Assembly (NCBI GenBank): GCA_902779845.1
Contig: CACZCZ010000016.1
Coordinates: forward strand, 1-51,061
Direction: 5' to 3'
Origin: an uncultured Bacteroidales bacterium
Lineage (GTDB): Bacteria; Bacteroidota; Bacteroidia; Bacteroidales; Bacteroidaceae
DNA length: 51,061 nt
The notes under the pieces were generated by a model, which was not told where the DNA came from, did no database searches, and was given only the letters and a program-made list of their open reading frames with translations. Positions 45,973 to 51,061 of this stretch are shown here, one piece after another. Each line of letters opens with the position of its first letter. Position 1 is the first letter of the stretch. The position numbers and the translations under genes are program-made.

Positions 45973-46167
45973 GCATGGTATATGCGCTCGGTCATCGCCG
46001 CTCCTTGCCGTGTTGTGTTCCTACTTTTTTAGGCATGAATGAGTACACGGTCCTGCGCGTCAGGTTCGCAACTGATGCGCTAACAATATTTTTACATTAT
46101 TGGAAAGGAGGCGTTGATATAATAAGATAAGGTTTACACACGCGCGCGTGCGTGAAATTTTCTATAT

Positions 46168-46267
46168 AAAAACCTACATACCTACATACTTACATATTTA
46201 TAAGTTTATTATCAATAAATTAGATGGGTGTAGGTTGTGGTGTAGGTTAGGTAAAAAGGTGTAGGTT
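46168..46267. repeat. Left end: terminal inverted repeat and three iterons
   Basis: 19-bp terminal repeat at 46168-46186; exact iterons GGTGTAGGTT at 46227-46236, 46239-46248 and 46258-46267. The 45973-46170 stretch outside the unit holds a run of alternating CG (46140-46152) and no gene. Confidence 0.75.
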
Positions 46268-46301
46268 TTAACGTATTTTAAGGCAATTACACGCCAAAAT
46301 A

Positions 46302-46333
46302 TTTGGATTTTCCAAGAAAATGTTGTATATTTG
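46302..46333 (+). promoter_or_regulatory. Promoter of the DUF6078-like gene
   Basis: -33 TTTGG at 46302-46306 and -7 TATATTTG at 46326-46333 with 19 bases between. It starts 35 bases beyond the last iteron, so iteron binding could control it. Confidence 0.65.
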
Positions 46334-46365
46334 CAGCGTTATTAAAACCGATAATAAATCAAAGT

Positions 46366-46833
46366 ATGATGAAGAAACTTTCCTACAAAGATGCGCCCCG
46401 CGACTGGGCCATCTGCTTCCAGAACGACTGTCCTCTCAGCGACCGCTGCCTGCGCCATGCTGTAGCGCAGCTGGCACCCTCTACCCTCACCCATCACGTC
46501 ACCGTGCTGCCCGCCGCACGTCAGGGTGATCAGTGCAGCCTCTTCGCATCCACCGAACCTGTCCGCATCGCCCGCGGCATGACGGGCATCATGAAGGGCA
46601 TCCCCTCCGGAAAGGCCACGGATCTCCGAAAAGAGCTCTATAACATCTTCGGCAGCTGTGCCCACTTCTACCGCTACCGCTCCGGACGCTATCCCGTGAC
46701 ACCCGAGCTGCAGAAGAGCGTCGCCCGCCTCTTCCACAAGCATGGCATCGAGACCGAGCCCCACTACGACGAAACCACCCTCTCCTATTACTTCCTCAAA
46801 GTGCCCCATGCGACAACACAACAGGAAGCATAG
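46366..46833 (+). CDS. DUF6078-like protein
   Basis: A 155-residue cytoplasmic protein; the first of two adjacent ATGs is at 46366 and a good promoter lies upstream. Features: CFQNDCPLSDRCLRH (three cysteines at about 13, 18 and 24), ARQGDQCSLFAS, MTGIMKGIPSGKATDLRKEL and FGSCAHFYRYRSGRYPVT. The cysteines could bind a metal. I believe this is the DUF6078 family, which I recall next to VirE-type genes in Bacteroidales, but could not check. A small regulator or a DNA-binding protein for the iterons are plausible roles; there is no direct evidence. Confidence 0.6.
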   Translation: MMKKLSYKDAPRDWAICFQNDCPLSDRCLRHAVAQLAPSTLTHHVTVLPAARQGDQCSLFASTEPVRIARGMTGIMKGIPSGKATDLRKELYNIFGSCAHFYRYRSGRYPVTPELQKSVARLFHKHGIETEPHYDETTLSYYFLKVPHATTQQEA

Positions 46834-46836
46834 GTT

Positions 46837-46921
46837 TTTCTCACTAGTGAGAAACATTTTTCTCACATGTGAGAAAACATTTTATCACGTGTGAGAAAAC
46901 ATTTTATCACATGTGAGAAAA
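46837..46921. repeat. Four tandem palindromes with 22-bp period
   Basis: TTTCTCACTAGTGAGAAA (46837-46854), TTTTCTCACATGTGAGAAAA (46858-46877), TTTTATCACGTGTGAGAAAA (46880-46899) and TTTTATCACATGTGAGAAAA (46902-46921). The spacing of two DNA turns puts all four on one face. Position between the two genes of the unit. Confidence 0.9.
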
Positions 46922-46936
46922 TACAAATCCCTTGCT

Positions 46937-47046
46937 CCTTAACTCCTTAACTCCTTAAACACCTTAAACTCTTAAACTCTTAAACCCTTAAACTCCTTAA
47001 CTCCTTAAACTCTTAAACTCCTTAACTCCTTAAACTCCTTAAACTC
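46937..47046. repeat. Tandem CTTAA(A)CTC word repeat before the VirE-type gene
   Basis: About 14 units of 7-9 bases (CTTAACTC, CTTAAACTC, CTTAAACCC) fill 110 bases and end seven bases before the start codon at 47053. Change in unit number would alter the leader of the downstream gene. Confidence 0.85.
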
Positions 47047-47052
47047 AATCAC

Positions 47053-49173
47053 ATGAAAGTATCAAGCATAAGAACAGACAAGAATGGTCAGCAGTTCCTG
47101 AAGAACTACGAATTCGGAGCCTTCCTCGACCGCATCAAGACAGACACGGCCAGTTTTCTCATCGGCTTCCTGCGCGACGAGGCCAGCCCTGAAGCGCCCA
47201 CGCGCTACCGCCACTACCACGACATCCCGCACATCTGCGTACCCATGGAACTGCGCCGACAGGAGAACGGTGCCATCGGCATGAGTGTCTTCAACGGACT
47301 GGTAGTCCTGGAGGTGCGACAGGTGATGAGCCAGAAGGCCTGCGAGGCCGTCAAGCGCGCCGCGATGGTTCTGCCGACAACGCTGGCAGCCTTCATAGGA
47401 GCCAGCGGACACGAGGTCATCATCCTCGTGCGTGTGGCACGTGCCGACGGCACACTGCCCGCCTCCGAGGTGGAAGCCGAGCCGTTCTACGCTCTGGCCT
47501 ACAAGCAAGTGGCACATCTCTATGACGCCACGCTGCCCCAGCGCGTCACCCGGATGACACCCACACCACGACACACCTTCCTGCTGCCCCTCGACAAATC
47601 GCCGCTCACGAACCCCGAGGCCGTACCGTTCCGCATCAACGCCACCGGCAATACGACAATCGATGACCAGGCTGACGAGCACCTGCTCGCGCTGCCTGAA
47701 CGCCGCGATGTACAGGAGGAGGACATGACAGCGTACTCGAACTACGAACGGGCCTACAGAGATGCCATCCAACGCGTGGCTGCGCACCTGGGCAACCCCA
47801 AGCGATGGGGAACGAAATGGTACAAGGCCTTCGTCACGGGGATGGCCACGGAACTCTATCGCGCGGCCTGGCCACAGGAGGAAGCGGTGTGCCATCTGTG
47901 GGGACACCTGACTTTCAAGGATGAGCCGGGACTGACCGAAGATTTCGTGCGCCGCACCGTGGAAGCAGTCTATGAAGAAGAGCAGACACTGAAGCACCGC
48001 CAAGACCTCGCAAGAGAAACCGAAGAGCCTGTGATGCAGCAGATTATACGTCGAATGGAGGACCGCTACGTATTCCGCCATAACACCATCATGGGCTACA
48101 CCGAATACCGCGCCAACCACACTTGGGTGACGCCCTGGCAACCCGTGACACCGCAGGTCATCAACACGTTCACCACCGACTTGTTGCTGGCCGGCCTGAA
48201 CCTGAACAACCACGACGTGCAGTACTACGTCAACTCCACCCGCATCCGCAAGTACAACCCCATCGAGGACTACCTCATGCAAACGGGCAAGTGGGACAAA
48301 CGCGACCACATACGCGCCCTCGCCGCCACCGTGCCCACACGCAACCAAGCACAATGGGCCGACTGGTTCCACACATGGTTCCTGGCGATGGTGGCCCAGT
48401 GGCAGGGCCGCGACCGCCGCTACGGCAACGCCATCGTGCCGCTGCTCATCTCCGACCAGGGCATGCACAAGAGTGCCTTCTGCCGCCTGCTGCTGCCGCC
48501 CGAACTGAGGTCATGGGGATATATGGACAACCTCTCGCTGGCCGAGGAGCGGCCTGTACACCTGGCCATGTCGCAAATGCTGATCATCAACCTCGACGAG
48601 TTCAACCGCATCTCGCCCCTGAAGCAGCAAGGCTTCCTGAAGAATATCCTGCAACTGCCGTCAGTGAAGGTAAAGCGTCCCTATTCCAGATATACCGTAG
48701 AGGTGCCGCGACTGGCATCGTTCATCGCTACGACAAACATGGCCGACGTGCTCCACGACCCCACGGGCAGCCGCCGCTTCCTGGGCATCGAAGTCACAGG
48801 CAGCATCGATGTCAGCCAGACACCCAACTACGCGCAGCTGTTCGCACAGGCAATGGAGGAACTGGACAGCGGCGCACGCTACTGGTTCAACGATGAAGAG
48901 ACGAAGGTCATCATGGCTCACAACCGTAAGTTCCAGCAGCTAAGCAGCGTCGAGCAGTTCTTCCATGAGTTCTTTGAGCCTACCCTGCCGGAGGATCCCG
49001 AGGCGGAGTGGCTCTCCGTTGCCGCCCTGATGATGATTATTAAGGAGCGTGCCGGAGCCAGTTTCAAGGCGCCTGCCCTCAACGCCTTCGGTCGCACCCT
49101 CAACGGACTGCCCGAGCTCGTACACAGACGCTCAAAAAATGGAAGCGAATATTGTGTGAAGCGCCTGTTTTAG
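47053..49173 (+). CDS. VirE/VapE-type primase-helicase (BT4734-like N-terminus)
   Basis: A 706-residue protein. The N-terminal 170 residues resemble the BT4734/BF3469-like domain found before VirE helicases in Bacteroidales. The ATPase domain is at about 420-610: a variant P-loop ISDQGMHKSAFC at 466-477, in which H472 replaces the usual glycine before KS; Walker B MLIINLDEFNR with D515 and E516; and FIATTNMADVLHDPTGSRRF. The tail is a winged-helix-like part (SVAALMMIIKERAGASF). Relatives are encoded on phages, islands and satellites and act in replication. Start is the ATG at 47053, directly behind the tandem word repeat. Confidence 0.82.
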   Translation: MKVSSIRTDKNGQQFLKNYEFGAFLDRIKTDTASFLIGFLRDEASPEAPTRYRHYHDIPHICVPMELRRQENGAIGMSVFNGLVVLEVRQVMSQKACEAVKRAAMVLPTTLAAFIGASGHEVIILVRVARADGTLPASEVEAEPFYALAYKQVAHLYDATLPQRVTRMTPTPRHTFLLPLDKSPLTNPEAVPFRINATGNTTIDDQADEHLLALPERRDVQEEDMTAYSNYERAYRDAIQRVAAHLGNPKRWGTKWYKAFVTGMATELYRAAWPQEEAVCHLWGHLTFKDEPGLTEDFVRRTVEAVYEEEQTLKHRQDLARETEEPVMQQIIRRMEDRYVFRHNTIMGYTEYRANHTWVTPWQPVTPQVINTFTTDLLLAGLNLNNHDVQYYVNSTRIRKYNPIEDYLMQTGKWDKRDHIRALAATVPTRNQAQWADWFHTWFLAMVAQWQGRDRRYGNAIVPLLISDQGMHKSAFCRLLLPPELRSWGYMDNLSLAEERPVHLAMSQMLIINLDEFNRISPLKQQGFLKNILQLPSVKVKRPYSRYTVEVPRLASFIATTNMADVLHDPTGSRRFLGIEVTGSIDVSQTPNYAQLFAQAMEELDSGARYWFNDEETKVIMAHNRKFQQLSSVEQFFHEFFEPTLPEDPEAEWLSVAALMMIIKERAGASFKAPALNAFGRTLNGLPELVHRRSKNGSEYCVKRLF

Positions 49174-49178
49174 CCCAA

Positions 49179-49278
49179 AACCTACACCTTGCGACCCTAC
49201 CTACACCCGAACCTACACTCGCATACGGCTCTATAAACCATATAGTTATCCTATGCGGGTGTAGGTATGTAGGTTTTT
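49179..49278. repeat. Right end: three inverted iterons, hairpin and terminal inverted repeat
   Basis: AACCTACACC at 49179-49188 (exact complement of the left iteron), TACCTACACC at 49198-49207 and AACCTACACT at 49210-49219 (one change each), then GGTGTAGGTA at 49258-49267 within the 19-bp terminal repeat (49260-49278). 49211-49225 and 49252-49266 pair over 15 bp (14 matches) with a further CTATA/TATAG inside, and six Ts follow at 49274-49279. The hairpin may also end the primase transcript. Confidence 0.75.
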
Positions 49279-49449
49279 TCAGGCAAAAATCATATATAGG
49301 TCTCCCACATCAGGCCGCTGTGCCATCCAGTCACTGCTCTAAAGTCACATAAGAAAAGAAAATTTTTCTCCATTATAGTTTTCTGTGGACAACGGGACTC
49401 TATTTGAGGGAAAAAGGTTATCTTTGCACCATCAAACACTATAGAACCT

Positions 49450-50959: not shown

Positions 50960-50970
50960 CTTGTAAAAGG

Positions 50971-51061
50971 GGCGGCTACCTACTCTCCCACGGGTGTGCA
51001 GTACCATCGGCGCAAGCGGGCTTAACTTCTCTGTTCGGGATGGGAAGAGGTGGAACCCCGC
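50971..51061 (-). rRNA. rrf: 5S ribosomal RNA, 3' part (window ends inside the gene)
   Basis: The reverse complement reads GGTTCCACCTCTTCCCATCC then CGAACAGAGAAGTTAAGCCC, CGCCGATGGTACTGC and GTGGGAGAGTAGGT, the standard bacterial 5S sequence from loop B to the 3' end. About 91 of roughly 112 bases are in view. The rest of the rRNA operon lies to the right. Confidence 0.93.

Follow-up and report, generated by a model that had tools for sequence, protein, structure and literature searches.

The window, a 51,061-nt contig (CACZCZ010000016.1, assembly GCA_902779845.1) of an uncultured Bacteroidales bacterium, carries a compact two-gene unit at positions 46168–49278, the larger gene of which encodes a BT4734-like/VapE protein (VapE hereafter). 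The explanation that we favor, with slightly more confidence than doubt, is that of transposon-like replicons forming a family across Bacteroidales: VapE would act as the initiator, the ends would be its inverted cognate origins, and short copies would be parasites resembling miniature inverted-repeat transposable elements (MITEs). The dispersal of the ends and their pairing are well supported.

The first-pass annotation reported a 19-bp terminal inverted repeat, which proved to be exact (46168–46186 and 49260–49278, arms separated by 3073 nt). In 200 dinucleotide shuffles of 46000–49400, the longest repeat with arms more than 500 bp apart was 15 bp; the 19-bp ends exceed chance. The three iterons described for each end were found in full at the left end, where GGTGTAGGTT occurs exactly at 46227, 46239, and 46258. 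At the right end, one box is exact (49179–49188, complement), and the remaining two are one base off each. The ends extend beyond these arms, each forming a stem-loop/iteron module of approximately 110–135 bp. In the left module (46141–46274, + strand), the repeat arm points outward and the inward boxes lie within 46226–46269. The right module (49173–49298, – strand) is an inverted copy directly downstream of VapE, with its outward arm at 49260–49278 and inward boxes within 49177–49218. Nine copies in the same genome displayed a common plan: an outward tandem box, a spacer of near-fixed length and free sequence, and inward boxes. GGTGTAGGTT occurs 19 times in this genome, often at a spacing of 31 bp. 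The outward boxes pair with the inward ones to give a stem-loop, and in the C7 copy both sides of the stem are changed with the pairing preserved (CCGTCACC/GGTGACGG). DNA folding was more stable than that of shuffled sequences for five modules (z from –2.2 to –7.0; –3.0 and –4.8 for the left and right window modules), a score that does not distinguish stem-loop formation from inverted protein-binding sites in double-stranded DNA. An Rfam scan yielded no family covering the ends. GCGCGCG-rich tracts were observed at 46139–46160 and just outside many, but not all, other ends, in several box families; they may reflect a target preference or be part of the element.

The box sequence varies between elements, but it agrees between the two ends of one element (e.g., ACCTACATACCTACA, AAAACTGCAAAACTGCCACC, CTGTCACGCTGTCACC, and AAATATCATAATATCA). 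The mean left–right box score was 18.2 within elements, a value inflated by the selection of most elements through an exact repeat, versus 8.5 between elements, and 0 of 20,000 permutations were as high. Outward arms scored 13.0 against the inward region of their own end and 8.3 against those of other elements. For 18 elements, box similarity was best correlated with VapE residues 631–706 (r = 0.51; 0.43 controlling for the helicase); the values were 0.38 for VapE residues 181–330, 0.36 (0.23) for DUF6078 residues 63–154, and 0.32 for the helicase. A natural pair, G150a and G136a, displayed a VapE identity of 0.93 outside the C-terminus and 0.63 within it, with the respective boxes CCTTCAC and CTGCCAC. 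Either the primase-helicase or the DUF6078 protein had been proposed to recognize the ends. The box correlation and the natural pair point to the primase-helicase, which probably acts through its C-terminal domain. The DUF6078 protein is a less likely reader, since its gene is absent from 2 of 20 close relatives and from the sequence read before VapE in two Bacteroides elements, and its divergence predicts the boxes less well. The wing motif RR[SAG] accompanied CTAC/CTGC boxes in 12 of 12 cases and was absent with TCAC/TCAT boxes in 9 of 9 (21 close elements), an association that was noticed first and then tested on the same data. G150b was left out of this comparison, its last ~20 residues appearing frame-shifted relative to G136a. 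As a general code the motif was rejected, because it fits 21 of 21 close elements but only one of four distant proteins. At the ends of L189, L190, L191, and L193, the third inward box remains AAAGGTGTAGGTTT, while the other boxes became CTGCCACC.

VapE (47053–49173, + strand) is intact and 706 aa long, with a BT4734-like primase fold, a helicase, and a C-terminal winged-helix-like DUF3874 region. Pfam matches were obtained for BT4734-like_N (E = 3.7e-16) and VapE, and for DUF3874 just under its cut-off; an NCBIfam scan gave no match. Structure comparison showed that the folds resemble those of the replication initiators PriRep1 and RepB' and of the P4 origin-binding domain, the helicase core being poorly modelled in the predicted structure. 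With its primase-fold N-terminus, PriRep1-like helicase, and C-terminal winged helix, VapE is somewhat more probably than not a replication initiator, a grade that belongs to the whole explanation of which this assignment is a part. In the proposed mechanism, the ends would be inverted copies of the cognate stem-loop/iteron origin of VapE. The C-terminus would bind the boxes, the helicase would open each end, and the segment between the ends would be copied from both sides. With low certainty, we suggest that host repair or recombination might then capture the copies at new sites, most of them intergenic, and leave no target duplication. The DUF6078 protein would have an accessory, regulatory role. 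Two-ended copies that lack genes would be parasites used in trans, and single ends would be remnants or a second form.

VapE matches at E ≤ 1e-100 were detected in 40 of the 139 genomes of the genus, a patchy distribution. Twenty relative loci were fetched and compared together with the window (21 loci). Relatives had been suggested as the place to look for the ends around VapE, and both modules were present at 19 of these loci, the window included (15 via the exact repeat and four read by eye). The two one-ended loci were G150a (right module only) and G140 (left module only). The DUF6078 gene occurred in 18 of the 20 close relatives; it was absent in G138 and in G150a, the latter retaining a remnant. 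The flanks (up to 2.5 kb) of the 21 loci were unrelated, save for one locus common to G136a and G150b and for matches of 127 and 111 bp. Named relatives included rumen Bacteroidaceae and Prevotellaceae assemblies, Segatella, Prevotella, and Bacteroides. An exact inverted repeat of at least 14 bp spanned VapE at 40 of 74 loci scanned by script, as compared with 8 of 400 cross-pairs; many of these loci are the same elements as the 20 fetched ones, and the 74 come from a set of 80, with L215, L236, L266, L286, L288, and L291 left out. The two-ended layout recurs in Segatella and Bacteroides, across a wide range of VapE identity. Most genomes are drafts, and several loci lie near contig ends; copy numbers are therefore lower bounds.

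Since VapE-type helicases occur in phages, we considered a phage or phage-satellite remnant, or a defense unit, with the ends as leftover origins. The sole PADLOC match, a CRISPR-associated PrimPol model on the VapE N-terminal domain, would suit this origin. For plasmid records, 20 of 51 matches were listed; the VapE relatives among them did not exceed 34% identity and, where read, lay in a chromosome-like context. For plasmid and phage records together, the listed matches reached at most 41% identity. Six records were fetched, four of them labelled as phage; of these four, one had an end repeat of 20 bp, another a repeat of 12 bp, and two had none. The 81 pattern matches in viral contigs yielded no confirmed relative. 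The unit holds no capsid, integrase, or packaging gene, and both the two-ended layout and the co-variation of its boxes persist across the wide VapE identity range. We consider this origin highly improbable and disfavor it.

The modules are dispersed beyond the VapE loci. A sequence model, R1, built from the nine modules of the window's own genome, matched 11 places in that genome (E up to 1.4e-11), nine of which were the building set. Three inward-facing pairs were found there: the window pair (3.1 kb), the C4 pair (0.74 kb), which contains no open reading frame (ORF) of at least 90 aa, and the C2 pair (15 kb), which encloses other genes. In G003, family B comprised three pairs of 0.5–0.6 kb, and family C mostly single units; for each family, this genome also carries a VapE element whose boxes match, at C37 for B and at C30 for C. 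G079 contained six inward pairs of 514–519 bp and one of 640 bp. The C4 pair, G003 family B, and the G079 pairs combine the features of MITEs (50–1000 bp, paired inverted ends, no gene, and ends shared with a larger element), the ORF scan having covered the C4 pair. R1 matches at E ≤ 1e-6 were present in 22 of the 139 genomes. After subtraction of two ends per VapE genome, surplus modules were found in 12 of the 24 genomes with a close VapE (best E ≤ 1e-190) versus 6 of the 115 others (Fisher p = 4e-7).

The claim that the unit is mobile or replicating was borne out by the modules at 11 places in its own genome, by the ORF-free pair, and by the mostly unrelated flanks of VapE. A fixed operon does not describe it, as other copies do carry the terminal repeats and the unit is not confined to one place. 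The proposal that it is also self-contained was not borne out, with neither a recombinase nor a circular form seen. The two neighbor genes of the window unit do not occur together in the relatives listed. The nearest evidence of insertion, judged by eye, is a single family C unit in G003, at the same locus as the C4 short copy. There it sits inside a convergent gene pair whose members almost touch in G057, G136, G150, and G152; at this locus, four of the nine loci read show the near-abutting genes, and another four have different neighbors. The empty-site candidates at C4, L315, and L319 were rejected. The C4 short copy has a different gene order in relatives, and L315 differs from G157 by a neighboring gene and not by the unit. 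The flanks of L319 are together in G158 but separated in G157, where they lie on different contigs (two in all) that each carry a head (L319, L333, L336), which looks like a rearrangement between copies; recombination between copies may thus rearrange chromosomes.

Several observations weigh against the replicon explanation. No consistent target-site duplication was found in 23 pairs, although its absence fits the proposed landing by host repair or recombination. At the loci compared, no complete unit had a base-exact empty site, and no recombinase is known for the landing step. The position shared by G136a and G150b is common by descent. The uneven outer limits of the short copies and the many single modules need further explanation. 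By R1, 8 of the 24 genomes with a close VapE have no module, but their boxes may simply differ. G090 carries 11 modules without a VapE match at 1e-100. Priming by VapE is doubtful, because the sequence of primase motif I (hhhDhD/E) looks degenerate, with E or N at the first position in 28 of 28 pattern-positive loci (46 given); the more distant C30 protein of G003 has D there.

Some of the same facts would suit an unlinked transposase or recombinase moving the DNA between the ends, with VapE only replicating or regulating the unit. The G090 modules and the gene-free short copies are compatible with such an enzyme, as is the absence of a recombinase from the unit by Pfam. An unrelated enzyme leaves unexplained both the tracking of the boxes by the VapE C-terminus and the co-occurrence of modules with a close VapE; the missing target duplication also speaks against it. 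We regard this alternative as unlikely.

The Bacteroides elements bear on another alternative, in which VapE belongs to the host and the modules, as regulatory or terminator repeats, are spread slowly in the manner of repetitive extragenic palindromic (REP) sequences, the whole element being immobile. A search with the element L289 in 16 genomes to which the loci had led revealed, among the matches listed, many dispersed matches to its two ends in four (G155–G158). Fourteen copies from the genome of B. bouchesdurhonensis (G158) share an alignable head of 117 bp and have unrelated left flanks. Most Bacteroides heads are single, with a short array, tandem or palindromic, behind them. These single heads, together with the frequent location of modules between or after genes and the positions common by descent, suit slow, REP-like spreading. 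However, VapE loci are patchy and mostly at unrelated sites, two Bacteroides heads 3.7 Mb apart are 98% identical, and the G079 pairs are uniform in length, which makes a domesticated, immobile element quite improbable. L319, one of the fourteen G158 copies, is a two-headed 0.56-kb pair. L289 has the order head, array, VapE, head, and the right end of L328 is a remnant only; in both, the sequence read before VapE contains no DUF6078-like gene. The heads of L314–L327 carry ~20–22-bp arrays of two types, GAAACAAAGTGTT and AAGTTGCATTTATA, some inside a larger palindrome bounded by AGTATTAATAGATAA.

We compared the replicon family with known systems. Replication of pRN1 (3097 bp in all) depends on a primase-helicase-winged-helix protein, on a small partner gene, and on a stem-loop of ~100 nt that follows directly downstream (PMC4234260). 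The window unit is similar in size (~3.1 kb), in its small partner gene and predicted protein architecture, and in the stem-loop of the ~100-nt class just downstream of the rep gene, here the right module. It differs by a second, inverted stem-loop upstream, by its iterons, and by its dispersal as chromosomal units; the primase motif appears degenerate, and no plasmid form was found. In SaPI (Staphylococcus aureus pathogenicity island) Rep and SCCmec Cch2, the C-terminal domain acts on repeats directly downstream of their own gene (PMC7581432), and the C-terminal domain of VapE, a putative initiator helicase, may likewise read iterons directly downstream. Those proteins reside in recombinase-bearing islands, whereas the window unit has two inverted origin-like ends and no recombinase; SaPI-type integrase and packaging functions were absent from its genes by ORF list and Pfam. 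RSF1010 uses one hairpin per strand, ssiA and ssiB (PMC4434180), and the primase fold of its RepB' resembles the VapE N-terminus. However, it has three separate Rep proteins on a plasmid, and its ~40-nt hairpins are not ends of a dispersed unit.

The REPIN/RAYT (REP-associated tyrosine transposase) systems also place a gene beside cognate palindromic repeats, which are scattered through the genome either in inverted pairs or singly and evolve together with the gene. The protein in those systems, RAYT, is a tyrosine transposase, and the modules described here are much longer than REPs (PMC3116915). VapE is an initiator-type primase-helicase, and neither Pfam nor fold comparison revealed a Y1 tyrosine (HUH) transposase. 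The BrickBuilt MITE of Porphyromonas gingivalis is likewise an intergenic element of Bacteroidales and has tandem repeats of ~23 nt in its interior; it was rejected as a relative, since its ends resemble IS5-family ends and no link to a primase-helicase is described (PMC4596501). An insertion sequence or a DDE or HUH transposon was also rejected, given the lack of a transposase in the window unit and of consistent duplications in the 23 pairs. By analogy, the closest systems appear to be pRN1 and the SaPI Rep-origin modules for the working of the unit and REPIN/RAYT for its dispersal.

The ingredients, an initiator helicase, iterons, a stem-loop origin, and MITEs, are known. The unit lacks tested features of insertion sequences, REPIN/RAYT, and SaPI-type islands, would work most like a pRN1/SaPI Rep-origin module, and is dispersed like a transposon family; the novelty lies in that combination. 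The same arrangement was not found in the open-access literature searched, which covers few subscription papers and for which several result lists were off-topic. More tentatively, and with less than even confidence, we propose that these elements are a mobile DNA class of their own, spreading through origin firing. Their initiator would copy any segment between two inverted stem-loop origins of its own, without transposase, integrase, or relaxase; its winged-helix specificity would diverge together with the ends, and gene-less parasite populations would exist across Bacteroidales. If the initiator does spread the ends, genomes harbor a kind of mobile DNA for which replication alone suffices, and a single explanation would cover many of the BT4734/VirE-type genes and intergenic repeats in Bacteroidales. 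The natural protein pairs in which specificity has changed allow a direct test of how winged-helix initiators recognize origins.

The remaining parts of the unit agree with the first-pass annotation. The intact DUF6078 gene (46366–46833, + strand, 155 aa, Pfam E = 3.1e-34) and VapE are the sole substantial genes inside, and a Pfam scan of both proteins found no transposase. The DUF6078 protein has a Cys cluster in its N-terminal half and a weak helix-turn-helix (HTH)-like fold in its C-terminal half (predicted local distance difference test score of the model, 83). No solved relative was found by sequence, and the fold search gave only weak HTH-like matches, with unrelated PBP chains in the top-Z rows. 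The two additional repeat types between the genes are palindromic tandem units of ~22 bp (TTTTCTCACATGTGAGAAAA type, 46836–46921), similar palindromes also being present inside short copies, and 8–9-bp tandem repeats (CTCCTTAAA type, ~46935–47049). Elsewhere in the same genome, the 15-kb stretch between the inward modules of C2 (C2:58534–73540, L026) encodes an AbiEii-type gene, AAA ATPases, and an esterase by Pfam; it is perhaps a composite carrying defense genes, or two independent single ends. It also contains a DUF805b cis-regulatory RNA match (L026:11128–11162). At C7:37028–41000 (L029), a module adjoins an HU-HIG gene and an AAA_21 gene. The window contig terminates within a 5S rRNA match (50967–51061).
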